Shown: in pieces, positions 4,590 to 24,829 of the stretch
How the letters are laid out: each line of letters starts with the position of its first letter
Numbering within the stretch: the first letter of the stretch is position 1
Source: a virus
DNA length: 24,829 bases
IMG/VR virus record: IMGVR_UViG_3300020471_000789
Location: 1-24,829 of that record
Reading direction: 5' to 3' (one strand)
Position numbers and translations under genes: made by a program
The notes under the pieces: generated by a model
Databases searched by the model: none
What the model was told of the DNA's origin: nothing
Seen by the model: only the letters and a program-made list of their open reading frames with translations

Positions 4590-5903
4590 ATGTCACTTGA
4601 TAAAATGCAAGATTTGCAGGAAGAACGTAACCGTTTAGCCTCGCAAATTCAAGAGCTCGGCGAACGCCAAGCCGATTGGTCCGCTGAAGACCGAGAAAAG
4701 TGGGACGTTCTGAACGCTGAATACGAGCGAGTTGACGAAGAACGAAACGCTACACAAGAAGCGCTAAACGTAGCCGCTAAACTTGATGCCCTAAAGGGTG
4801 CCGAAGAACGCGCAAACTACGAAGCAGAAAAAGCCGGAGACGGCCGAATCACTGAAGCTGTAAAGCGTGACGCTATGCGAGCCTGGGCATTGTTCCAATC
4901 TGGGGTTAACCTTAGCCCAGAACAACGCGAAGCAGCTCACCGTTGCGGCGTCGATCCTCGCCAAAGCTATTTCGAATATAACCTACGAAGCAACGCCCCG
5001 CGTTACTCGCATAACGGTTATGGAAAAGAGCTACGAGCGCAGGCCACTAGCCCAGCATCAGCCGGGGGGAATTTAATTCCTGAAGGCTTCGCAGATTCCC
5101 TAGAACAGGCCCTGCTACAATACGGCGGAATCCGTCGAGTTGCTAACGTTATGCGTACGGCTTCCGGTAATGATTTACCAATGCCAACCGTTAACGATAC
5201 GAGCAACAAAGGCGCGTTGCTGGCTGAAAATACTCAGGTTTCAGAGCAGGACGTAACCTACGGCAGTGTAACGCTTGGCGCCTATAAGCTCAGCTCGCGC
5301 CTTGTGAGAATCAGTTCGGAGCTAATGCAAGATGCGGCCTTCGATATGGGAAGCCAGCTAGGCTCACTTATCGGCGAACGTCTTGCACGCGGTGCATCAG
5401 ATTACTTTGTAACTGGTACCGGTTCTAGTGAACCACAGGGTGTAGTAACTGGTTCTAGCTTAGGCGTAACAGCCGCAAGCGCAACCGCTGTAACTTTCGA
5501 TGAAATCATCGACTTGATTAACAGCGTTGACCCAGCATATCAAGCCTCGGCATCTTTCGGCCTTGCAATGAATAACAGCACTAAAGCTGCTATCCGCAAG
5601 CTGAAAGATTCTAACGGTCAATACCTCTGGCAAGCTGGCCTAACGGCTAACGATCCCGACACTATCCTCGGCAAGCCTGTAGTTGTTTTGCAGGAAATGG
5701 CAGACATCGCAACAGGCGAGAAAACCATTATTGCCGGCGATATGTCGAAATTCGTTATTCGCGATGCTGGGCCAGTCCGATTGGCTCGAATGGATGAGCG
5801 CTACCGAGACTATGACCAGACCGGATTCGTAGCCTTTGCACGTGTTGATTCTATCGTGATTGACGCAGGCACTAACCCAATTAAACACCTGATTCAGGCG
5901 TAA
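4590..5903 (+). CDS. Major capsid protein, HK97 fold
   Basis: This 437-aa protein builds the icosahedral shell. The first 80-odd residues are a charged coiled coil (MQDLQEERNRLASQIQELGE onward), matching the delta/scaffold domain removed by the upstream protease. Then come a flexible region, the SAGGNLIPEGFADSL entry to the mature N-arm and E-loop, and the A- and P-domain motifs AYKLSSRLVRISSELMQDA, ERLARGASDYFVTGTGSSEPQGVV and the C-terminal DMSKFVIRDAGPVRL. I chose ATG 4590, which has an AAAAGGTG site five bases upstream. An in-frame GTG at 4539 would extend the ORF back into the 3' arm of the hairpin and has no ribosome-binding site. Confidence 0.96.
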   Translation: MSLDKMQDLQEERNRLASQIQELGERQADWSAEDREKWDVLNAEYERVDEERNATQEALNVAAKLDALKGAEERANYEAEKAGDGRITEAVKRDAMRAWALFQSGVNLSPEQREAAHRCGVDPRQSYFEYNLRSNAPRYSHNGYGKELRAQATSPASAGGNLIPEGFADSLEQALLQYGGIRRVANVMRTASGNDLPMPTVNDTSNKGALLAENTQVSEQDVTYGSVTLGAYKLSSRLVRISSELMQDAAFDMGSQLGSLIGERLARGASDYFVTGTGSSEPQGVVTGSSLGVTAASATAVTFDEIIDLINSVDPAYQASASFGLAMNNSTKAAIRKLKDSNGQYLWQAGLTANDPDTILGKPVVVLQEMADIATGEKTIIAGDMSKFVIRDAGPVRLARMDERYRDYDQTGFVAFARVDSIVIDAGTNPIKHLIQA

Positions 5904-16754: not shown

Positions 16755-17066
16755 ATGTATACGTACGATAAAGTATTTACAGCACAAACTGCCAATGGTT
16801 CCACCAGCTCGTTAAACTGGGATGGTCGAACAGGGCAGGTCATAGCCTCCGGCACTTGGGATAGTGCAACACTACAGCTAGAGGTTAGCCCAGACGATGG
16901 AACCACATGGATCAGCATTGGCGACGAAGGCAAGTTGTCCGACGATGGAGCATTTAATTTCAATCTGAATCCGTGCAACGTACGTTTAACGGTTGCAAGT
17001 GCCGGAGCGTCAACCAGCCTGAATGCCTGGATAACATCCGAAGAATACGGTAGCGCAAAAATATAG
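16755..17066 (+). CDS. Small virion-like beta protein
   Basis: This 103-aa protein is a single beta-sandwich-like unit: WDGRTGQVIASGTWDSATLQ, LEVSPDDGTTWISIGDEGKL, then GAFNFNLNPCNVRLTVASAG and STSLNAWI. Small proteins of this type, with the VSPDxGTTW and NFNLNPCxxRL motifs, are common in phages as probable virion or decoration components. There is no signal peptide or membrane helix. AAGGAATAAA precedes the ATG. It sits between two lysis-type membrane genes, so this cluster mixes lysis and virion functions. Confidence 0.65.
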   Translation: MYTYDKVFTAQTANGSTSSLNWDGRTGQVIASGTWDSATLQLEVSPDDGTTWISIGDEGKLSDDGAFNFNLNPCNVRLTVASAGASTSLNAWITSEEYGSAKI

Positions 17067-17084
17067 TCGATCCTCCGAAGGGAA

Positions 17085-17117
17085 GCCGGCGGCGTGGGTT
17101 TCGATCCGCCCGCCGGC
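17085..17117 (+). repeat. GC-rich inverted repeat ahead of the XhlA-like gene
   Basis: GCCGGCGG (17085-17092) is exactly complementary to CCGCCGGC (17110-17117), with a 17-base loop. No T-run follows, so it is not a standard terminator. It lies in the 60 bases between the small virion gene and ATG 17127, and it may affect mRNA stability or translation of the XhlA-like gene. TCGATCC occurs at 17067 and again at 17101 within the loop. Confidence 0.55.
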
Positions 17118-17126
17118 GTCTTAAAT

Positions 17127-17360
17127 ATGCAAGAAGACATAACCGAAATCAAGCTACTGCTGGAACGTCTCACAGCGCGTCTAGAGCCTATTTGCAAGCT
17201 ACACGAGGGAAACGGCAAGCCACCGCTAGGAACGCGTCAGGCGTTGGCTGAAGACCGCATAGCCAAGATTGAAGATTCTAATAAATGGTTAGCCCGTAGC
17301 ACGGTTACAGCGTTAGCTGGAGCGGTTGGTTCTCTAGTCTGGCATTTGCTGACAAAATAA
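17127..17360 (+). CDS. XhlA-like lysis accessory protein
   Basis: From ATG 17127 this is a 77-aa protein with an N-terminal amphipathic helix (MQEDITEIKLLLERLTARLE), a polar middle, a second helix (AEDRIAKIEDSNKWLARSTV) and a C-terminal hydrophobic stretch (VTALAGAVGSLVWHLLTK). This is the layout of XhlA-like membrane proteins, which act with holins in cell lysis. An in-frame GTG at 17094 would add 11 residues but lies inside the GC-rich hairpin and adds nothing conserved, so ATG 17127 is preferred with moderate certainty. Ribosome-binding support is weak for both. A 100-base AT-rich gap follows. Confidence 0.62.
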   Translation: MQEDITEIKLLLERLTARLEPICKLHEGNGKPPLGTRQALAEDRIAKIEDSNKWLARSTVTALAGAVGSLVWHLLTK

Positions 17361-17460
17361 TTTCAGATTCTATTGCATGCAACCGATATAAAAATGTAGT
17401 ATTCTAATGTTTTAATAGTTGATTTAATGTTTTGTTTTTTTAAGGGGGGGGAAACAGGGA
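17361..17460 (+). other. AT-rich gap separating lysis genes from DNA-metabolism genes
   Basis: The 100 bases between the XhlA-like gene and the 17461 gene are AT-rich and hold a T-run followed by a run of eight G (about 17433-17451), the last part giving a strong ribosome-binding site. Candidate promoter boxes such as GATATA and TATTCT are present, but none has a good partner at proper spacing. It is the most likely place for an early promoter by position. No terminator hairpin is visible. Confidence 0.4.
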
Positions 17461-18048
17461 ATGTTTCAAATGGAATCTGGCCGTGCTGAAATCATAACAG
17501 TGCCAAAAGCAGTGCGAGGCCGTATTAATTCTAAGGCAAAGCAGCTGGCAGAGTTTGGCCAGCGTACAAAGGGATTTAAGGGGAGAAGCTACACGGCAGA
17601 AGATGTAGCGCTGCACTTGATCGGGCAATGGGCATTTAGTCGATGGTGTGTAAATAATCGCATTTATCACCAGTGGTGCTATTCTGACAGTCCCAACGAT
17701 TTCACGTGCGAAGGGTCGACAACCGGGCAGCTGTTTGGCGTCTGCTGTGTGCCATTCGAGGCCGGCTGGAATTTCAATGAAGCCACTGACGGAATCAGGA
17801 TCAGCAGGTACCGTTGGTTGCACGAGGAATGCGTTACGTTCTATCTGTGCATGAGGTTCGACGGCTCGAAGGTCCATTTCTACGGAGCGAGTGAATGGAC
17901 AGATTTTGCCGACGCAAACATCTTTGCAATGCGTCCAACAGTTTATGAAGTGCCGGTTGACGAATTAGCCTGGACAACGGACCAGCTGCTTGAAGTATTA
18001 AGGGATACAGACGAACAGCAAACAATTTTGGAAAGTGTATTTGAATAG
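17461..18048 (+). CDS. Hypothetical protein, first gene of the DNA-metabolism block
   Basis: I do not recognise this 195-aa protein with confidence. It has a basic N-terminus (VPKAVRGRINSKAKQLAEFG), then YTAEDVALHLIGQWAFSRWC, a Cys/Trp-rich middle with PNDFTCEGSTTGQLFG and VCCVPFEAGWNF, a strand pair FYLCMRFDGSKVHFYGASEW, and MRPTVYEVPVDEL toward the C-terminus. The order of a G-x-x-AF helix, a DF near a Gly, and a final YxVPxxEL strand is reminiscent of PD-(D/E)XK-like phage proteins, but the expected acidic and Lys catalytic residues are not clearly in place. Any nuclease would therefore be degenerate or misread. The ATG follows a strong G-rich ribosome-binding site. The csrA gene starts eight bases after its stop. 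Confidence 0.7.
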   Translation: MFQMESGRAEIITVPKAVRGRINSKAKQLAEFGQRTKGFKGRSYTAEDVALHLIGQWAFSRWCVNNRIYHQWCYSDSPNDFTCEGSTTGQLFGVCCVPFEAGWNFNEATDGIRISRYRWLHEECVTFYLCMRFDGSKVHFYGASEWTDFADANIFAMRPTVYEVPVDELAWTTDQLLEVLRDTDEQQTILESVFE

Positions 18049-18056
18049 GGGATATT

Positions 18057-18236
18057 ATGGGATTAGTTTTAAGACGAAAAAAGGGGGAAACAATACGAAT
18101 CAACGATGATTGTGTAATCGTTTTCCATCATGTAAATAACTCGCGTGCCAAGGTTGAAATCAAGGCGCCTGAATCTGTGAAAATTTTAAGAGGGGAAATA
18201 GAAAATGGGAAATCCGTTCAAGAAGCCAAAAGCTAG
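18057..18236 (+). CDS. csrA: Carbon storage regulator CsrA homologue
   Basis: This 59-aa protein is a CsrA-type RNA-binding regulator that would block or alter translation and stability of mRNAs carrying GGA motifs. It aligns end to end with bacterial CsrA: GLVLRRKKGETIRINDD for the first strands, VNNSRAKVEIKAPESVKILR for strands 4 and 5 and the A-P-x-x-V turn. With one extra residue at the N-terminus, L5, R7 and R45 match Leu4, Arg6 and Arg44 of E. coli CsrA, the known RNA contacts. AGGGGA lies four bases before the ATG. The 3' end overlaps the Sak4-like gene by 32 bases, so both should be translated together. It is short and easily missed. Whether it acts on host or phage RNA is open. Confidence 0.9.
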   Translation: MGLVLRRKKGETIRINDDCVIVFHHVNNSRAKVEIKAPESVKILRGEIENGKSVQEAKS

Positions 18237-19089
18237 AGGTAGCCAGCGTGCTAAAATCATTCTTTCGGGCAAAGCCGGGGTTGGTAAAACTGTGTTTGCA
18301 ATGCAGTTTCCAGCCGTGGCATTTATAGACGTTGAAGGCAGTGCCGAGCGTGAATGGTACGCCGACCAACTGAAAGCCAATGGGGCTAGTTACTTTGGAC
18401 GTGATGATGGCAGCCAGGACATAGCCGAAGTAATCAAGCTGATTAAATGGCTGGCAACCAACAAGCACGGTTTCAAAACTGTAGTAATTGATTCATTCAG
18501 CAAGATGTACAGCGTCGAAGCTGCACGCTGTGCAAAGCTGAAGCGCAACGGAAAAGAGATCGGAACGGACTTTGGTGCGGATCGGCGTGAAGCTAACAAG
18601 CAGGTCAGAATTCTGTTTGAATGGCTTGATAAGCTGGATATGAACGCTGTTCTCATTTGCCACAGCAAGCAGGATTTCGGCTCAGAAACTAACGAAACCA
18701 CATTTGACGGCATGAACCTGATGGATCATGAACTTGATTTGTGGCTGGAATGCCTATTGCGCGGCACTGATAAACGCGAGATCCGTGTTAGAAAGCAGCG
18801 TTTGCAGGGATTCAAGCTAAATGAGCGGTTTCCGTTGGATTTTGAGACATTTGCCAAAAAGTATGGGGAAAAGCACCTAAACGCTAGCGTTGAAGCCGTA
18901 GAAGTAGCCTCAGAAGAGCGGGTGGCCATTCTAAGAGGTTTAATCAAAGAAGCTGGCATCGGACAGGTAACTGTTGATAAGTGGCTACAGAAGGCCAAAG
19001 TGCAGCAATTGGAGGAGTTGCCGCATGATTTGGTTAACAAGTCTATTGAATATTGTGAGGGGCGATTAAATGCGACGGGTGCGAGTTAG
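18205..19089 (+). CDS. Sak4-like RecA-fold ATPase (phage single-strand annealing/recombination protein)
   Basis: This 294-aa protein is a phage P-loop ATPase of the AAA_24 / Sak4 type, related to the RecA/Rad51 core and used in phage recombination. The Walker A motif is SGKAGVGKT (21-29), Walker B is TVVIDS (92-97), and VLICHSKQD (149-157) matches the sensor strand with a His. Residues up to about 225 are the ATPase core. The C-terminal 70 residues form a small helical domain (ERVAILRGLIKEAGIGQVTV). The ATG has AGAGGGGA nine bases upstream, inside csrA. An SSB-like gene follows two genes on, and Sak4 proteins are known to work with a cognate SSB. The next gene overlaps the end by 20 bases. 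Confidence 0.86.
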   Translation: MGNPFKKPKARGSQRAKIILSGKAGVGKTVFAMQFPAVAFIDVEGSAEREWYADQLKANGASYFGRDDGSQDIAEVIKLIKWLATNKHGFKTVVIDSFSKMYSVEAARCAKLKRNGKEIGTDFGADRREANKQVRILFEWLDKLDMNAVLICHSKQDFGSETNETTFDGMNLMDHELDLWLECLLRGTDKREIRVRKQRLQGFKLNERFPLDFETFAKKYGEKHLNASVEAVEVASEERVAILRGLIKEAGIGQVTVDKWLQKAKVQQLEELPHDLVNKSIEYCEGRLNATGAS

Positions 19090-19267
19090 TAGGAAAGTAT
19101 TGGATGCGTGCATTGCGTTTGAATGTATCACTGATTTACCACGATACTTTGACGGCATGACTTTGAAGCAAATCCAATCATGGATTAAAACCAATCATGG
19201 TGTACGTATAGGTTTAGTTACTTTGAAAAATATATGCATTTATAGGAGAGTTAAGTATGCAGTTTGA
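19070..19267 (+). CDS. Small basic hypothetical protein between Sak4 and SSB genes
   Basis: This 65-aa protein is not recognised. It is basic and contains a likely helix-turn-helix pattern in its second half (FDGMTLKQIQSWIKTNHGVR, then IGLVTLKNICIYRRV), which would suit DNA or RNA binding. Its ATG lies inside the end of the Sak4-like gene (20-base overlap), and its stop lies 11 bases inside the SSB-like gene. The strict overlap with both neighbours supports it being a real gene. Function is unknown; a regulatory or recombination accessory role is possible by context. Confidence 0.6.
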   Translation: MRRVRVSRKVLDACIAFECITDLPRYFDGMTLKQIQSWIKTNHGVRIGLVTLKNICIYRRVKYAV

Positions 19268-19685
19268 TCCGAATACTGTTAAAGATGCCAGCTGGCTAGT
19301 GCCAGAGGGCGAATATGATTTTGAGATTGTCCATGCTGAAGATTCGGTAAGCAAATTCGGTGTGGAACAGATGTTTTTTAAGTTTAGGGTATTCCTGGCC
19401 GATGGAGAGACAGCTTTGATTCATCAGTACATTGGGGGAAAACACCTATATAAGCTGAAGCATTTATGCAATTCGATAGGCTGTATTCAGTTCTGGAATG
19501 ATGGCGATTGCGATCCAGGCGACATGCTCAACAAGTCTGGGAGGGGGTTTCTAGGGACATATGACAAAAACGATGGAACCAAACGCAACACGTTCCAGCG
19601 TTTTCTAAAGCCGAAAGAAGACAGCAAGAAAAAGCTAGAGGATGACATAAAGAATGTCGAAGGCGAGGACGATATACCATTTTAG
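19257..19685 (+). CDS. DUF669-like single-stranded DNA-binding protein candidate
   Basis: This 142-aa protein looks like the DUF669-type partner often found beside Sak4-like ATPases. Features are VPEGEYDFEIVHAEDSVSKF near the N-terminus, FFKFRVFLADGETALIHQYI, then KLKHLCNSIGCIQFWNDGDC and GRGFLGTYDKNDGTKRNTFQ, consistent with an OB-like beta fold. After a Lys/Glu/Asp-rich linker it ends in GEDDIPF, almost identical to the C-terminal peptide by which bacterial SSB recruits its partners. It would coat single-stranded DNA and attract host replication and repair enzymes. TAGGAGAG precedes the ATG. A terminator follows its stop. Confidence 0.83.
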   Translation: MQFDPNTVKDASWLVPEGEYDFEIVHAEDSVSKFGVEQMFFKFRVFLADGETALIHQYIGGKHLYKLKHLCNSIGCIQFWNDGDCDPGDMLNKSGRGFLGTYDKNDGTKRNTFQRFLKPKEDSKKKLEDDIKNVEGEDDIPF

Positions 19686-19688
19686 GGA

Positions 19689-19715
19689 GCAGCCATAAAA
19701 CTTTCGGGTGGCTGC
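19689..19715 (+). repeat. First hairpin after the SSB-like gene
   Basis: GCAGCCA (19689-19695) is complementary to TGGCTGC (19709-19715), enclosing a 13-base loop. It begins four bases after the SSB-like stop and lies just upstream of the terminator hairpin. GCAAC (19714-19718) could instead pair with GTTGC (19732-19736) in the terminator stem, so the two hairpins could be alternatives to a third fold. This is weak, at five base pairs. Confidence 0.5.
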
Positions 19716-19728
19716 AACCGTCTGGGTT

Positions 19729-19764
19729 ATAGTTGCCAGTGGGGACATTGGCAGCTATTTTTTT
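19729..19764 (+). terminator. Rho-independent terminator after the SSB-like gene
   Basis: ATAGTTGCCA (19729-19738) pairs with TGGCAGCTAT (19749-19758) over ten base pairs including one G-U, around a ten-base loop. It is followed directly by a run of seven T (19758-19764). This is a canonical plus-strand terminator. The loop contains GGGGA, a core of CsrA binding sites, though this may be chance. The next ORF begins at the base after the T-run. Confidence 0.83.
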
Positions 19765-19887
19765 ATGAATAAACAACTCGAAATTGGAATCGTGGTAGCG
19801 ATTGGCATAGTGATGCCAGGGCTATTAACGGGGGGTGTTTTAACAGTTTATATGATTTGTAGATATTTGTATTTAAGGGGGAAGTAA
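19765..19887 (+). CDS. Tiny single-span membrane protein
   Basis: This ORF codes for 40 residues: a short polar start (MNKQLEIG), a hydrophobic segment of about 24 residues (IVVAIGIVMPGLLTGGVL, TVYMI) and a basic end (CRYLYLRGK), as in small inner-membrane peptides. It ends in a TAATG overlap with the next gene. Its ATG is the first triplet after the terminator's U-tract and has no Shine-Dalgarno site, so it can be expressed only when transcription reads through or starts nearby. It may be real, or merely carry the ribosome-binding site (AAGGGGGAAG) of the next gene. Confidence 0.45.
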   Translation: MNKQLEIGIVVAIGIVMPGLLTGGVLTVYMICRYLYLRGK

Positions 19888-20321
19888 TGGGTAATTTAGC
19901 TGAGCATTTAATGGAATTAGCGGCAGATTGGAATGCTGCATTTCTTATCGCAGAACAGGACATAAATGAAACACACAGATCAGCAGTGAACGTTTTTTTT
20001 GAGTGGCCAAATGGTGAAATTATTGAGACAGAGGTTTATTCATGGGTTGGCGGTTCTATATTCCAACACTCTAAGTTTTTTCCAGATAATCCGACAGGGA
20101 ATGACATAGAAGCCGGTTATTTAAGCGTCGACGGCGCAATTAAGGGCTGGCTTCAAACGTATGAATTTGTAGGTAAATTTGAACACCAGTGGCATATATA
20201 TCAAATGTGCAGAGACTCATATTTTGCGCATCAATGGAAGGGGTTGAGTCAAGCAATTTCCTATTTTAGTCAAATGGTTTATGATGATCCTGCACTGCTG
20301 GAGCTGTTGTCTGATGATTAG
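19887..20321 (+). CDS. Hypothetical protein ahead of the replication gene
   Basis: This 144-aa protein is not recognised. It is acidic and rich in aromatic residues, with AEHLMELAADWNAAFLIAEQ at the N-terminus, a beta section HRSAVNVFFEWPNGEIIETE, a middle with IFQHSKFFPDNPTGNDIE, and helices in the last third (YFAHQWKGLSQAISYFSQMV). No membrane segment, signal peptide or catalytic motif is visible. AAGGGGGAAG gives a strong ribosome-binding site, and the gene overlaps the replication gene by eight bases, so it probably belongs to the replication unit. Confidence 0.68.
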   Translation: MGNLAEHLMELAADWNAAFLIAEQDINETHRSAVNVFFEWPNGEIIETEVYSWVGGSIFQHSKFFPDNPTGNDIEAGYLSVDGAIKGWLQTYEFVGKFEHQWHIYQMCRDSYFAHQWKGLSQAISYFSQMVYDDPALLELLSDD

Positions 20322-21141
20322 TGGATATATTAAAGTTCATCGTCGATTGCTCGAATCAGAAGTATTTGAAGACCCGAGGCTATTCAAAACGTGGATGTGG
20401 ATTCTATGCAAAGCAAACTTTAAGCCGGTTGTTTTGAACAACGGAAAAGCACTAAACACAGGGCAATTTGCTATGTCATATGGCCGAGCTGCAAGGCATT
20501 TAGACTGCAGTGTAAACACGGTCAGGCGGCATTTTAAGCGTCTAAAAGCCATGCAAATGATTGACACGCAAAGCGGCGCGCAGTTTACCGTCGTAAGTGT
20601 CTGCAATTACAGGACTTACCAACACAGTGATGGAAATGGTGGCGCGCCGACGGATACGCAAACGGATACGCACACGGATACGCAGACGGATACGGAGACG
20701 GCACACAGAATAAGAAATATAAGAAAACAAAAAAATAATAATAAGGGGATTGGTTTTTTTACGGGGATGGAACCAGCCAGACAAGCACAGTTAGAAAAGT
20801 GGTATCAGTACCGTCAGCAGATGGGTGGCTACACACAACAGCAGCTAGAGGAATTTGCTAAAACCGTGCAACATCTGGATTCTAAACAGCTAGAATTAAA
20901 AGTGAGCCGAGCAATCGCTAACGGCTGGAAATCGTTGGTTCACATGGACGTTGAGCCAGTGCCTAAAGCAGCTCCGGCAAAACGTACAACCGAAGCAGAT
21001 GTGATGGCTGGTGAGATATACAGCATTGAGCAGAAGATCAGCAAATTGCAAAAGCACGGTGATCCTGAAACCATTGCCGGATTAAGGTCAAAACTAAAGG
21101 AATTGAAAAGTGCTCAGAGCAAAATACATCAAACAGGGTGA
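20314..21141 (+). CDS. Winged-helix replication protein (primosomal/initiator type)
   Basis: This 275-aa protein resembles phage replisome organisers of the DnaD/initiator type that bind the origin and help load helicase. Residues 1-105 match the common N-terminal domain: SGYIKVHRRLLESEVFEDPR, FKTWMWILCKANFKP, GQFAMSYGRAARHLDCSVNT and VRRHFKRLKAMQMIDTQ, with the recognition helix near 65-80. A low-complexity Thr/Asp/Gln linker (113-129) and an Asn/Lys segment follow. The C-terminal 120 residues are helical (GYTQQQLEEFAKTVQHL) and end in a coiled coil. ATG 20314 overlaps the previous stop by eight bases; an in-frame start at 20281 gives a Cys-rich extension unlike the family. It is the only replication gene visible. 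Confidence 0.75.
   Translation: MISGYIKVHRRLLESEVFEDPRLFKTWMWILCKANFKPVVLNNGKALNTGQFAMSYGRAARHLDCSVNTVRRHFKRLKAMQMIDTQSGAQFTVVSVCNYRTYQHSDGNGGAPTDTQTDTHTDTQTDTETAHRIRNIRKQKNNNKGIGFFTGMEPARQAQLEKWYQYRQQMGGYTQQQLEEFAKTVQHLDSKQLELKVSRAIANGWKSLVHMDVEPVPKAAPAKRTTEADVMAGEIYSIEQKISKLQKHGDPETIAGLRSKLKELKSAQSKIHQTG
20650..20697 (+). repeat. Four 12-base tandem repeats within the replication gene
   Basis: The unit ACGGATACGCAR occurs four times head to tail with few changes (the last unit reads ACGGATACGGAG). It encodes TDTQ/TDTH/TDTQ/TDTE in frame and forms the linker between the winged-helix domain and the helical C-terminus. Its 12-base length keeps the frame if the copy number changes. Confidence 0.9.
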
Positions 21142-21364
21142 AAACAAACGGTGTAAAGTAATCACGAACAATGTTGATATTCTAGCGCAACTCGACCAAC
21201 AACTAGGAAAAGCAGGTTTTAAACAGGTTGGTATAATTGCACATCTTATATCATTCATTACAGCCGGCAGGAGGCCAAGACGTGCTAATTCTAAAGCCAC
21301 AAAAGTTGGTGATTCTAACGCCGCCAGGGACACAGGCAAGCAGGATTCACAATTGTTTGGGTGA
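21110..21364 (+). CDS. Small hypothetical protein overlapping two genes
   Basis: This 84-aa ORF starts at GTG 21110, with AAAGGA eight bases upstream, overlaps the replication gene by 32 bases and the sulfotransferase-like gene by 83. Its first 55 residues (KRCKVITNNVDILAQLDQQL, GKAGFKQVGIIAHL) look like a small alpha/beta unit, whereas the last 28 are of low quality and lie over the start of the next gene. Without it 140 bases would be non-coding in an otherwise packed region, which supports it. The function is unknown. Confidence 0.45.
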   Translation: MLRAKYIKQGENKRCKVITNNVDILAQLDQQLGKAGFKQVGIIAHLISFITAGRRPRRANSKATKVGDSNAARDTGKQDSQLFG

Positions 21365-21875
21365 CCGTAAAGGTGCAATGGTATTGATGGCTTCTGGCCA
21401 GACACACTGGACACACCTACACAGCACAAAAATCCCAGATGACTACCTGCACTATCAAAGAGCTGTGATTGTACGTAATCCGTTTACCAGAGCTCTGCAA
21501 ATGTATGATGATTATTGTGAATTATGGGAATCTAATAACAAAAAGCCTATTAGCTTTTACGAATGGATCAGCAACCTAAAAACGCAGGACTGGGAGATAC
21601 AAACAACCATCCACGAATGGGTCAGCGACCAGGTGCCAGCTGAGCCGATTAAGTTTGAACAAGCAGCTAGAGACCTAAAAGAAAGCTTTGGAATACGTAT
21701 AAAGTCACCGTTTAAGGATTACATCAACTGGAAGAAGCGTTGGTGGCCGATTGGGTCAACTGCTATCTGTGAATTCAGGCAGCACGTCATCAAGGATATT
21801 GATCCCTTCGGTTACACGACTAAAGCCATTACCTGGCTGGAAGCCAAAGCTATTGCAGGAATTTTCGACGTATGA
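21282..21875 (+). CDS. Sulfotransferase-like protein
   Basis: This 197-aa protein has the marks of a PAPS-dependent sulfotransferase fold. A first strand (LVILTPPGTQASR, residues 9-21) gives the 5'-phosphosulfate loop after a beta strand, and VIVRNPFTRALQMYDDY (63-79) matches the 3'-phosphate loop with Arg and a following helix. The C-terminal part contains YINWKKRWWPIGST. The start is GTG 21282, with a perfect AGGAGG seven bases upstream; an earlier in-frame TTG at 21237 lacks such a site. At 197 aa it is short for the family, so an acceptor-binding part may be reduced. The target is unknown. It overlaps the PAPS-reductase-like gene by four bases (ATGA). Confidence 0.68.
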   Translation: MLILKPQKLVILTPPGTQASRIHNCLGDRKGAMVLMASGQTHWTHLHSTKIPDDYLHYQRAVIVRNPFTRALQMYDDYCELWESNNKKPISFYEWISNLKTQDWEIQTTIHEWVSDQVPAEPIKFEQAARDLKESFGIRIKSPFKDYINWKKRWWPIGSTAICEFRQHVIKDIDPFGYTTKAITWLEAKAIAGIFDV

Positions 21876-22696
21876 AAGAAATACACATATTGAGTTTAGG
21901 AGCAGGCGTTCAATCAACTGCATTGTATTTGATGGATCTAGATGGCGATCTAGATGTCAAATTTGATTATGCAATTTTTGCCGATCCAGGCGATGAACCA
22001 GAAGCAGTTTACAAGCATTTAGAATGGCTGCAAACATTGGGTGGTGCTGAATTGCTAGTCAGATCAAACGGTTGTCTAGGTGATGATCTTATGGATAAAA
22101 CTAAGGATAGGGTTTCATCCATTCCTGTTTTCACATTCAATGAGTCTGCAAACAGTGTTGGAATGGTGCAACGACAATGCACAAACGACTACAAAATTAA
22201 AGTGGTGGAACAAACGATTAGGCGTGACATTCTAGGTTTAAAGCCGAGGCAACGAGTGCCTAAAGATGTAAAAATCTGGCAATATGTCGGATTTAGTATG
22301 GATGAGCCTGGTAGAGCAGCAAGAGCGCGCGGCAGATTTAACCAACGTGGCTGGACGGATGTCAGTTTTCCGTTGATAGAAGATGGAATGACCAGACAAG
22401 ACTGCATCAATTATTTAGAGCAAAGAGTGCCACACAATGTGCCGAGGTCAGCATGTGTTTATTGCCCCTATAAATCAAATCGTGAATGGCTTGCATTGAA
22501 ACGCGCTGGTGGTGCAGATTGGCAACGTGCATTGGCTATTGATAAAGCATTGAGGACTAAAGGCACACCATTGAATAAGAGGTTAAATTATCCAGCGTAT
22601 TTGCACCGTTCGTGCAAGCCGTTGGAAGAATGCAAACTTGATGAAGACCAAATGAATTTGTTTGACATGGAATGTGAAGGCGGCTGTGGATTATGA
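21872..22696 (+). CDS. PAPS-reductase-like PP-loop protein
   Basis: This 274-aa protein is an adenine-nucleotide alpha-hydrolase (PP-loop) family member related to PAPS reductase, a type seen in many phages. The PP-loop is ILSLGAGVQSTALYL (6-20). It is followed by FDYAIFADPGDEPEAVYKHL, the RQCTNDYKIKVVEQ motif (101-114), QYVGFSMDEPGRA, FPLIEDGMTRQDCINYL, the SACVYCPYKSNREW motif (193-206), and a C-terminal ECEGGCG. The paired Cys at 195/198 and 268/272 suggest a metal or iron-sulfur site. The reaction is not known for the phage family: sulfate reduction, base thiolation or DNA/RNA modification are all possible. It is translationally coupled to the sulfotransferase-like gene by ATGA, and to RusA by a four-base overlap. 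Confidence 0.82.
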   Translation: MKEIHILSLGAGVQSTALYLMDLDGDLDVKFDYAIFADPGDEPEAVYKHLEWLQTLGGAELLVRSNGCLGDDLMDKTKDRVSSIPVFTFNESANSVGMVQRQCTNDYKIKVVEQTIRRDILGLKPRQRVPKDVKIWQYVGFSMDEPGRAARARGRFNQRGWTDVSFPLIEDGMTRQDCINYLEQRVPHNVPRSACVYCPYKSNREWLALKRAGGADWQRALAIDKALRTKGTPLNKRLNYPAYLHRSCKPLEECKLDEDQMNLFDMECEGGCGL

Positions 22697-23034
22697 ATTT
22701 CATATTGCCATATCCGCCAACTGTAAACACCTACTGGCGAAAGTTTAACAACCGGATGGTTATTTCACCTAAAGGCCGGCAATACAGAAAAGATGTAGTA
22801 CAGCAACTGCAAGGGTGTGAAACACTCACAGGCCGGCTGAAGCTAACAGTTATTGCAACTATGCCGGATAGACGCCGAAGGGATTTGGACAACATCCTCA
22901 AAAGCCTATTGGATGCCATGGATCATGCAGGGGTATTTGAAGACGACGAGCAGATAGACGAATTGCACGTATTCCGCAACGGCGTTGAAAAGCCGGGAAA
23001 CGTTGCAATCTCACTTCAGGAAATAGAGCGTTGA
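22693..23034 (+). CDS. rusA: RusA-type Holliday junction resolvase
   Basis: This 113-aa protein cuts four-way junctions made by recombination and replication. It has the classic RusA signs: LPYPPTVNTYWRK at the N-terminus, then GRQYRKDVV, the basic strand MPDRRRRDLDNILKSLLDAM with the catalytic Asp pair D64 and D66, and the third acid in VFEDDEQIDEL (D84, D85). Length is close to the roughly 120 aa of the family, and the catalytic residues are all present. It starts four bases inside the PAPS-reductase-like gene and ends in a TTGA overlap with the next ORF. Likely partners are the Sak4-like and SSB-like proteins upstream. Confidence 0.94.
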   Translation: MNFILPYPPTVNTYWRKFNNRMVISPKGRQYRKDVVQQLQGCETLTGRLKLTVIATMPDRRRRDLDNILKSLLDAMDHAGVFEDDEQIDELHVFRNGVEKPGNVAISLQEIER

Positions 23035-23426
23035 TAGATTTAACTAGGTTGAATTACAGGATTAGAAATTGCGTATTGAGCCAACACGGCACCGATCATT
23101 TGGCAGATTGTAATCAATGCGGAATGAAACCCAAACGTATGTGGAGCCACTCAGGTGCTGTGATCGGGTGTGAATGTAGTGTGCTGACAAATGCAAACGG
23201 TGCTGGTTGGGGTACGCTGGAGCATAGCTGGCAAATTCTACAAGGCGCGTGCACCGAAGCCGACGAACTAAGAACAAACCTGGCAAAAGCACATGAGGAC
23301 CACAATTTATACCGTGCAGAAATGCGTGCTAGGCTGGAAGCCTCGAAAGATGGCGTATTAAGTGCCGAACAAATTAAAAAGATGTTAGACATAACCTACA
23401 AGATTAATCAAAGATCAGTTTCGTAG
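23031..23426 (+). CDS. Hypothetical protein with possible zinc site
   Basis: This 131-aa protein is not recognised. Its N-terminal half has Cys pairs, CNQC (27-30) and CEC (47-49), with His residues nearby, a possible zinc-binding site. The C-terminal half is a long helix with ACTEADELRTNLAKAHEDHN and YRAEMRARLEASKDG. The start codon is TTG, overlapping the RusA stop as TTGA; no other start is as well placed. Its end overlaps the convergent phosphoesterase gene on the other strand by 19 bases. A regulatory or DNA-binding role is possible, but not shown. Confidence 0.62.
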   Translation: MIDLTRLNYRIRNCVLSQHGTDHLADCNQCGMKPKRMWSHSGAVIGCECSVLTNANGAGWGTLEHSWQILQGACTEADELRTNLAKAHEDHNLYRAEMRARLEASKDGVLSAEQIKKMLDITYKINQRSVS

Positions 23427-24265
23427 ATTTTTCGGTACCAGTTGCGGTTTCTAAAGTACCATTCAACCCAGTAACCACCCAGCGGTCTTGCACCCATGGC
23501 TCTTTCATTAGCCCAGCCGGCTGCACCGTCTCTAAATTCATCTTTGTACGTGCCGGTTCTGATAAAGTCTATTTTGCGTTGTTTAACTTTATTCCTAGTG
23601 TCGATGTAAGCCTGCACGTGCGGAAAGGTTTCTTTGCGGTGAATGTGGCCGGCTATGTACATATCAGCTCGGCATTGCGTCATGTACTTTTGAAATGCGT
23701 TGGTTTGACGACCCCAAGAAGCACTGCCACCATATCCATGGTGCGAATAGATCGTAGTCTGTGATTTGTTTCTCTGGTATTCAAGTCGAACCTTGCAAAA
23801 GTTACCATATCCACCAGAAACCGTGATTGCACCAGAGGATCGCATCATATGAGCGAACCTATCAATTAGATCAACCTCATGGCGTTTTAGTACGCTGGTT
23901 TCATGGTTGCCAGGGCAGACGAGCGCTAAGTGCTGGCCGTATGGCTTAAACCATTCAACGGCCTCATGCACAATGAGATCAAGATAAGGGCCACCAGCGG
24001 AGGGCATGTGCTCAGGCCGAATAGATTTTGAGGCGCGTGGATCGCCAGCACCTTCCATTGCGCAAAACAGATCGCCAAAGATACAAATAAACGCATTACG
24101 TTTAACAGCTTGATCCAGATGACGTTTCAACAAATCCCTGTCACATTTGGGATTGTCAAAGTGCAAGTCTGACAACGCTAACATTGGCACATGCTGACTA
24201 ACAGATTTGATTTGTGCATCAATGATTTGCACGTTGCCAGATTTGCGGGTGATTGTGTACTTCAT
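23408..24265 (-). CDS. Calcineurin-like metallophosphoesterase
   Basis: This 285-aa protein has all motifs of the dinuclear metallophosphoesterase fold: SDLHFDNP (D33, H35), GDLF (64-67), GNHET (119-123), YSHHG (H175 and H176) and GHIH (206-209). It should hydrolyse phosphoester bonds, with nucleotides, cyclic nucleotides or nucleic acids as possible substrates; SbcD/Mre11 nucleases share the fold, but nothing shows a nuclease-specific domain. The C-terminal 70 residues are rich in Arg, Trp and Tyr. It is the only clear minus-strand gene and has its own promoter-like TATAAT upstream. It overlaps the plus-strand gene at 23426 tail to tail, with no terminator between them. Confidence 0.91.
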   Translation of the reverse strand: MKYTITRKSGNVQIIDAQIKSVSQHVPMLALSDLHFDNPKCDRDLLKRHLDQAVKRNAFICIFGDLFCAMEGAGDPRASKSIRPEHMPSAGGPYLDLIVHEAVEWFKPYGQHLALVCPGNHETSVLKRHEVDLIDRFAHMMRSSGAITVSGGYGNFCKVRLEYQRNKSQTTIYSHHGYGGSASWGRQTNAFQKYMTQCRADMYIAGHIHRKETFPHVQAYIDTRNKVKQRKIDFIRTGTYKDEFRDGAAGWANERAMGARPLGGYWVEWYFRNRNWYRKIYETDL

Positions 24266-24306
24266 TCTTTCATTGTAAGTAGCCTAACGGTTACGCCGAT
24301 AGTTTA

Positions 24307-24312
24307 ATTATA
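24307..24312 (-). promoter_or_regulatory. Probable minus-10 box of the phosphoesterase promoter
   Basis: On the minus strand this hexamer is TATAAT, a perfect minus-10 box, about 42 bases before the phosphoesterase ATG. The minus-35 region has no good match to TTGACA at 16-18 bases. The surrounding DNA, 24300-24317, is AT-rich. The gene is otherwise isolated on its strand and needs its own promoter, which supports the call. Confidence 0.5.
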
Positions 24313-24385
24313 ATTAGCGTTCCCCCTTGAAAGCGTCTGTCGGTCATTCCAAATAATCCCCACAGCCGGCAGGCGCGTTTTTTTA

Positions 24386-24404
24386 TTCAGTTTGCTATAC
24401 TGAA
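24386..24404 (+). promoter_or_regulatory. Extended minus-10 promoter inside an inverted repeat
   Basis: TGCTATACT (24393-24401) is a good extended minus-10 element for rightward transcription, with a T7 tract (24378-24384) just upstream. It lies inside the inverted repeat TTCAGT/ACTGAA (24386-24391 and 24399-24404, seven-base spacer), a plausible operator for a repressor. There is no good minus-35 box, as expected for some extended minus-10 promoters. It would drive the 56-aa ORF at 24454 and the HNH/terminase genes. Bases 24266-24453 otherwise hold no gene. Confidence 0.55.
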
Positions 24405-24453
24405 ACGCCGATACTCAAGGGCAAGCAAATACTATCTATCTAAGGGGATTCAA

Positions 24454-24624
24454 ATGTTTGGAAGATTAATCGCAATAGTTAAAAGGTTGTCACCAGGTGC
24501 AGTAACTTATCTAGAAGGCTGTAGTGATGATGACATCATGGAGCTGCTGCTACTGGCTGGTCAGCATGGCATTGATGAAGCAATTGAAGCCATTGAAGCA
24601 CATAATGCAGGTATGATGCTCTGA
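24454..24624 (+). CDS. Small acidic hypothetical protein
   Basis: This 56-aa protein has a strong ribosome-binding site (AAGGGGA, five bases before ATG) and a promoter about 50 bases upstream. It is made of a short basic amphipathic start (MFGRLIAIVKRLSPGAVTYL) followed by an acidic helical part (SDDDIMELLLLAGQHGIDEA) with a short IEAIEA repeat. No named family is recognised. Good signals ahead of it make it a convincing gene despite its size. It may be a small regulator or host-takeover protein, which is speculation. Confidence 0.68.
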   Translation: MFGRLIAIVKRLSPGAVTYLEGCSDDDIMELLLLAGQHGIDEAIEAIEAHNAGMML

Positions 24625-24654
24625 CCATGTGCAGCGTACACGTTAGGGGTTGCT

Positions 24655-24829
24655 ATGGGATTGTGTGCCTACTGTATGCGGCGTAAGTGTAGCTGTACTA
24701 CAACGCGACGCATAAAGAAAACCTGGAGCACCCCAGAGGGTACCCCCCTAGACCATGAGCAAAGACGGGGTAACTCTAACGCTAGGGGTTATAATCGCAG
24801 GTGGCGTAAGGCTAGGCTGACATGGCTAA
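24655..24829 (+). CDS. Probable HNH endonuclease, N-terminal part (cut by window edge)
   Basis: The ORF begins at ATG 24655, with AGGGG eight bases upstream, and is open to the last base (58 codons plus one base). A Cys cluster, CAYCMRRKCSC, stands at the N-terminus. The segment ARGYNRRWRKARLTWL matches the highly conserved entry to phage HNH nucleases that lie just upstream of the terminase genes and help packaging. The HNH core itself would be beyond the window, so the call rests on the entry motif and on context. If the window ends were joined, the frame would run into a TAA at positions 33-35, seven bases ahead of the terS ATG, and the product would lack an HNH core. Confidence 0.55.
   Translation, partial: MGLCAYCMRRKCSCTTTRRIKKTWSTPEGTPLDHEQRRGNSNARGYNRRWRKARLTWL

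Follow-up and report, generated by a model that had tools for sequence, protein, structure and literature searches.

CsrA homologues are frequent in phages and plasmids, where they are usually proposed to act on the host. A 59-residue CsrA-like protein encoded among the recombination genes of a tailed phage raises the alternative question of whether a phage CsrA may control the genes of the phage itself.

The csrA gene and its operon

The window, that is the whole stretch of DNA analysed, is a 24,829-base IMG/VR record of a tailed phage, with genes for terminase, portal, protease, capsid and tape-measure proteins, and for Sak4, a DnaD-like loader and RusA. Its TerL has matches of 34–37% in Bacillota, Phycisphaerales and others. 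No Sak4 relative was found in 392 genomes from the phylum of the Phycisphaerales match, or in 398 from that of a Bacillota match, and these searches show little because they had no positive control. The features on which the argument depends are the following.

17451–17467 (+), hairpin GAAACA-GGGAA-UGUUUC enclosing the gene 17461 start codon; candidate CsrA site, with counterparts in contigs L240, L241 and L244
17461–18048 (+), first operon gene, 195 aa, matching no family; precedes csrA in every contig that carries csrA
18047–18052 (+), AGGGGA, ribosome-binding site of csrA read from the sequence; kept in both relatives (L043, L044)
18057–18236 (+), csrA, 59 aa, MGLVLRRKKGETIRINDDCVIVFHHVNNSRAKVEIKAPESVKILRGEIENGKSVQEAKS; PF02599 and PDB CsrA/RsmE matches, intact in relatives
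18205–19089 (+), sak4, Sak4-like ATPase (phrog_124, 8.7e-20; Pfam AAA_24, 4e-19); its first 32 bases overlap the csrA end
19257–19685 (+), probable single-strand-binding protein gene; weak matches to DUF669 and SSB; lies farther downstream within the module
19728–19765 (+), intrinsic terminator with a GGGA tetraloop, its stem covarying in two relatives; probably closes the operon

The csrA product matches the Pfam family CsrA (PF02599) over residues 3–50 with an E value of 4.5e-14 and 52.6 bits, about twice the curated cut-off of 27 bits, and it also matches PHROG profiles of CsrA-like and transcriptional regulators, as well as solved CsrA/RsmE chains in the PDB. A model of the monomer has a pLDDT of 67.5, a low confidence that might be expected when a single chain of a domain-swapped dimer is modelled; even so, the 15 PDB entries that match it best consist entirely of CsrA-type chains, and for 14 of these the probability is 1.00. 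Two relatives have unbroken copies of the gene: the closer (L043, contig IMGVR_UViG_3300030104_003310) has 95% of CsrA residues in common with the window, and the farther (L044, contig IMGVR_UViG_3300039036_000021) 64%. Measured between the window and these two relatives, dN/dS is 0.10–0.24 over the whole gene and, outside the sak4 overlap, 0.03 at a dS of 0.26 (L043) and 0.16 at a dS of 1.57 (L044). The profile and structure matches together with these substitution patterns identify csrA as a real gene, with purifying selection that holds to a dS of 1.7. What a first-pass annotation had read from this DNA, namely a CsrA-matching gene of 59 aa that shares exactly 32 bases with the Sak4-like gene, is confirmed. 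The same annotation placed csrA at the head of the operon; it is the second gene, because 17461–18048 precedes it. A pattern scan found no near bacterial relative of the window CsrA, INPHARED gave no match to it at E 0.01, and plasmids yielded only weak matches, to ordinary CsrAs.

Regarding its neighbour, the sak4 product fits the Sak4 profile, and its Walker A motif, GKAGVGKT, is invariant in three relatives. Further viral contigs were obtained by searching with a Sak4 alignment, and the csrA-sak4 order, proposed earlier as something to look for in related phages, recurs as an overlap in seven viral contigs besides the window (eight with it), down to ~50% Sak4 identity. The overlap measures 20–35 bases across the csrA-containing contigs, and csrA always lies between the homologue of gene 17461 and sak4, although in L044 an inserted methyltransferase-like gene (5311–5826, VVLFDPPYSPRQV) separates it from the first gene. 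In most lineages the csrA start lies within 1–9 bases of the stop codon of the first gene, and the sak4 start falls within csrA. The gene is present in G001, G002 and G007–G011 and missing from G003, G005 and G006; the contig G004, a fragment, starts at Sak4.

The slot of csrA holds another small ORF in the csrA-less L238 (3883–4092) and L239 (3883–4113), of 69–76 aa (MSDLNTILNNLD...) and overlapping the Sak4 start by ~100 bases or more. It is empty in G003, a contig with 97% TerL identity to the window. Absence from close relatives had been named in advance as evidence against the gene; this contig does lack csrA, but its whole early module has also diverged. Because relatives with and without csrA exist, comparison of the contigs makes it an optional but maintained gene in one slot of the module.

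The slot after the terminator holds an ORF of no recognised type in the window (19887–20321), another such ORF in L044 (from ~7575 onwards) and, in L043 (from ~7686 onwards), the apparent start of a C5 DNA methyltransferase (MLKVGELFAGIGGIGLGLEMTGG). Moreover, the window carries a PAPS-reductase-like gene at 21872–22696 (phrog_424, 2.4e-32), and phage JC1 likewise has csrA and a PAPS reductase (PMC9144972). A metallophosphoesterase gene, possibly for a DNA repair exonuclease, lies at 23408–24265 (-), on the strand opposite to the rest of the genome.

RNA-contact residues and the VHRE motif

The three residues singled out earlier as retained, L5, R7 and R45, are indeed there, as the counterparts of E. 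coli L4, R6 and R44, and the contact residues found in the window protein comprise R45, L5, L3, R7, K8, V41, I43 and I48. The equivalents of E. coli L2, L4, R6, V40, V42, R44, E46 and I47, which rank highest in the alanine scan of the E. coli protein as far as it is quoted in PMC6692469, are all identical or conservative. To call the RNA-binding residues intact, as the first-pass annotation did, nevertheless needs a qualifier, because the canonical motif V-H-R-E/D at positions 42–45 reads ILRG in the window, with H43 and E45 replaced, and in RsmQ, a homologue from a plasmid, H43A lowers binding (PMC9928087).

This change is common to the group. The CsrAs of the Sak4-linked relatives have ILRG, ILRN or IVRG in place of VHRE, and in all seven Sak4-linked sequences H43 has become L or V and E45 has become G or N, whereas 24 of 26 comparison CsrA sequences retain H43. 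The arginine essential for RNA binding, R44, is kept. In a tree of 33 CsrAs the Sak4-linked set groups together, but a single origin is unproven because the branches are long. Judged by their sequences, these proteins are a divergent type of CsrA. Since the contacts are kept but H43 and E45 are replaced, they likely bind RNA, with a strength or preference that may differ; the loss of H43 in particular may have changed either affinity or preference.

A candidate target at the start of the operon

The first-pass annotation had looked for targets in the motif GGGGA, at ribosome-binding sites and in the terminator loop at 19739–19748. The motif is there, yet the window shows no enrichment of it (19 occurrences against 23 expected from dinucleotide shuffles), it does not fit the CsrA core A-N-GGA, and at ribosome-binding sites it is the usual AGGGG-type Shine-Dalgarno of this phage. 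Given the lack of enrichment and the Shine-Dalgarno use, it was rejected as a CsrA signal. The region after the SSB-like gene (19684–19766) contains a hairpin, a conserved CCGTCTGGG and a terminator whose loop is conserved and whose stem covaries. The terminator loop was rejected as a CsrA site, being a GNRA tetraloop in an element that occurs in exact form in this clade only; a stable tetraloop explains it. A wider search for the terminator pattern returned, besides relatives, unrelated matches only, and Rfam gave no match within 17000–24829.

A different candidate surrounds the first start codon of the operon. This hairpin, whose loop contains GGA, is found at position -10 of the first gene not only in the window but also in L043 and L044; its sequence is the same in the window and L044, and L043 keeps the pairing through G-U and carries GCA where ACA was invariant in SELEX. 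In L240 and L241, a diverged lineage that carries csrA and whose first gene has only ~31% protein identity with that of the window, the same position is occupied by a hairpin with a different stem, GCAAACA-CGGA-UGUUUGC. Its ACAcGGAUGU is one base off ACARGGAUGU, the core of the E. coli CsrA SELEX consensus RUACARGGAUGU (PMC7652899). The L244 hairpin reads GCAAAC-GGGAU-GUUUGC. Elsewhere in the loci that were retrieved, ~1% of start codons have a comparable hairpin (10 of ~994, the family's own hits excluded), a count made after the motif had been noticed. The hairpin was not found in three csrA-less relatives, nor in the csrA-containing pair L242/L243, and the presence or absence of hairpin and csrA cannot be separated from exchange of the early module as a whole. 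Additional hairpins of the CsrA type where csrA and sak4 begin were discarded: those of the window have stems of only 4 bp, and L240 and L242 have none.

We tentatively propose, with confidence that falls somewhat short of even, that the product is a CsrA-family translational regulator of the phage, co-produced with the recombination genes, and that it represses its own operon through the hairpin at 17451–17467. A CsrA dimer would bind the candidate hairpin and hide either the start codon of gene 17461 or the adjacent upstream ribosome-binding site. Translation of the first gene would be repressed, translational coupling would damp csrA and sak4 too, and the recombination module might in this way be limited or timed; effects on host mRNAs may add to this self-control. 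The csrA gene of E. coli is known to repress itself (PMC7652899). The earlier suggestion that the protein times phage translation becomes plausible through this candidate hairpin, but not through the sites cited for it. A related reading, possible although less likely than not, is that of a CsrA subfamily confined to phages and altered in its RNA preference, which would serve as an autogenous translational switch of the recombination operon, co-evolving with its target hairpin, and not as a host reprogrammer.

Action directed at the host is a serious alternative, even if it seems less than probable. The protein would then act on host mRNAs or antagonist sRNAs (motility, quorum sensing, metabolism, defence), with no role in phage gene expression, and the hairpin would be an unrelated start-codon structure. 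Host reprogramming of this kind is possible by analogy with Bci of AUS531phi, which lowers motility and alters quorum-sensing expression and infection (PMC7546807); RsmQ likewise has a host-wide action (PMC9928087), and csrA is optional in the module, as cargo would be. Such a role, however, leaves unexplained the fixed place of the gene between gene 17461 and sak4, its overlap with sak4, and a hairpin found mainly with csrA.

It is unlikely that the altered protein works by interference, pairing with the host CsrA or competing for its RNA and so weakening the host system. The replacement of H43 and E45 throughout the Sak4-linked set and the reduced binding of RsmQ H43A would suit such a role, but R44 and the other top contacts of the alanine scan, as quoted, are kept, and mixed dimers are described as not demonstrated (PMC7366521). 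Recent capture of a host gene with no function, which the variable presence of csrA among relatives might suggest, is very improbable and largely refuted by the purifying selection described above. The frame and arrangement maintained in eight contigs and the empty pattern scan for a near bacterial relative also speak against it.

Self-repression through the hairpin remains our preferred, if tentative, reading, and the group offers a compact test of whether a phage CsrA controls phage genes: the operon is short, a single hairpin is predicted, csrA is present in some natural relatives and missing from others, and the RNA-binding motif has changed naturally.

Comparison with known CsrA systems

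Phage-borne csrA is already known, in about 1% of phages, and two cases have been tested. Sobrero and Valverde reported 30 phages with csrA, 1.2% of those searched (PMC7366521), and 91 INPHARED records match an E. coli-like CsrA. Bci has effects on infection, quorum sensing and motility (PMC7546807), and knock-down of PTXU04 gp28 gives smaller plaques (PMC11879866); JC1 gp47 is possibly a virion component (PMC9144972).

Compared with the CsrA/RsmA/RsmE family (PF02599), the window protein matches over the whole conserved core, but it has an extra residue after Met1, ILRG for VHRE and no C-terminal extension, and the end of its gene is common to sak4. Bci, F116 p24, PTXU04 gp28, VvAW1 gp26 and JC1 gp47 are, like it, phage CsrA homologues. 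Several phage csrA genes adjoin or neighbour recombination genes, as in AUS531phi, F116 and VvAW1, and that of VvAW1 even overlaps an exonuclease gene. In contrast to the window protein, however, the phage CsrAs compared here retain H43, no Sak4 partner was found for the known ones in the regions examined, and those of AUS531phi and F116 are 123 aa forms. RsmQ of plasmid pQBR103 is also a CsrA homologue on a mobile element, but one of another type, with a canonical VHRE/D and a host-wide effect (PMC9928087). What the sequences add to these systems is a recurrent csrA-sak4 overlap, a divergent type of CsrA, and a candidate hairpin around the first start codon of the operon.
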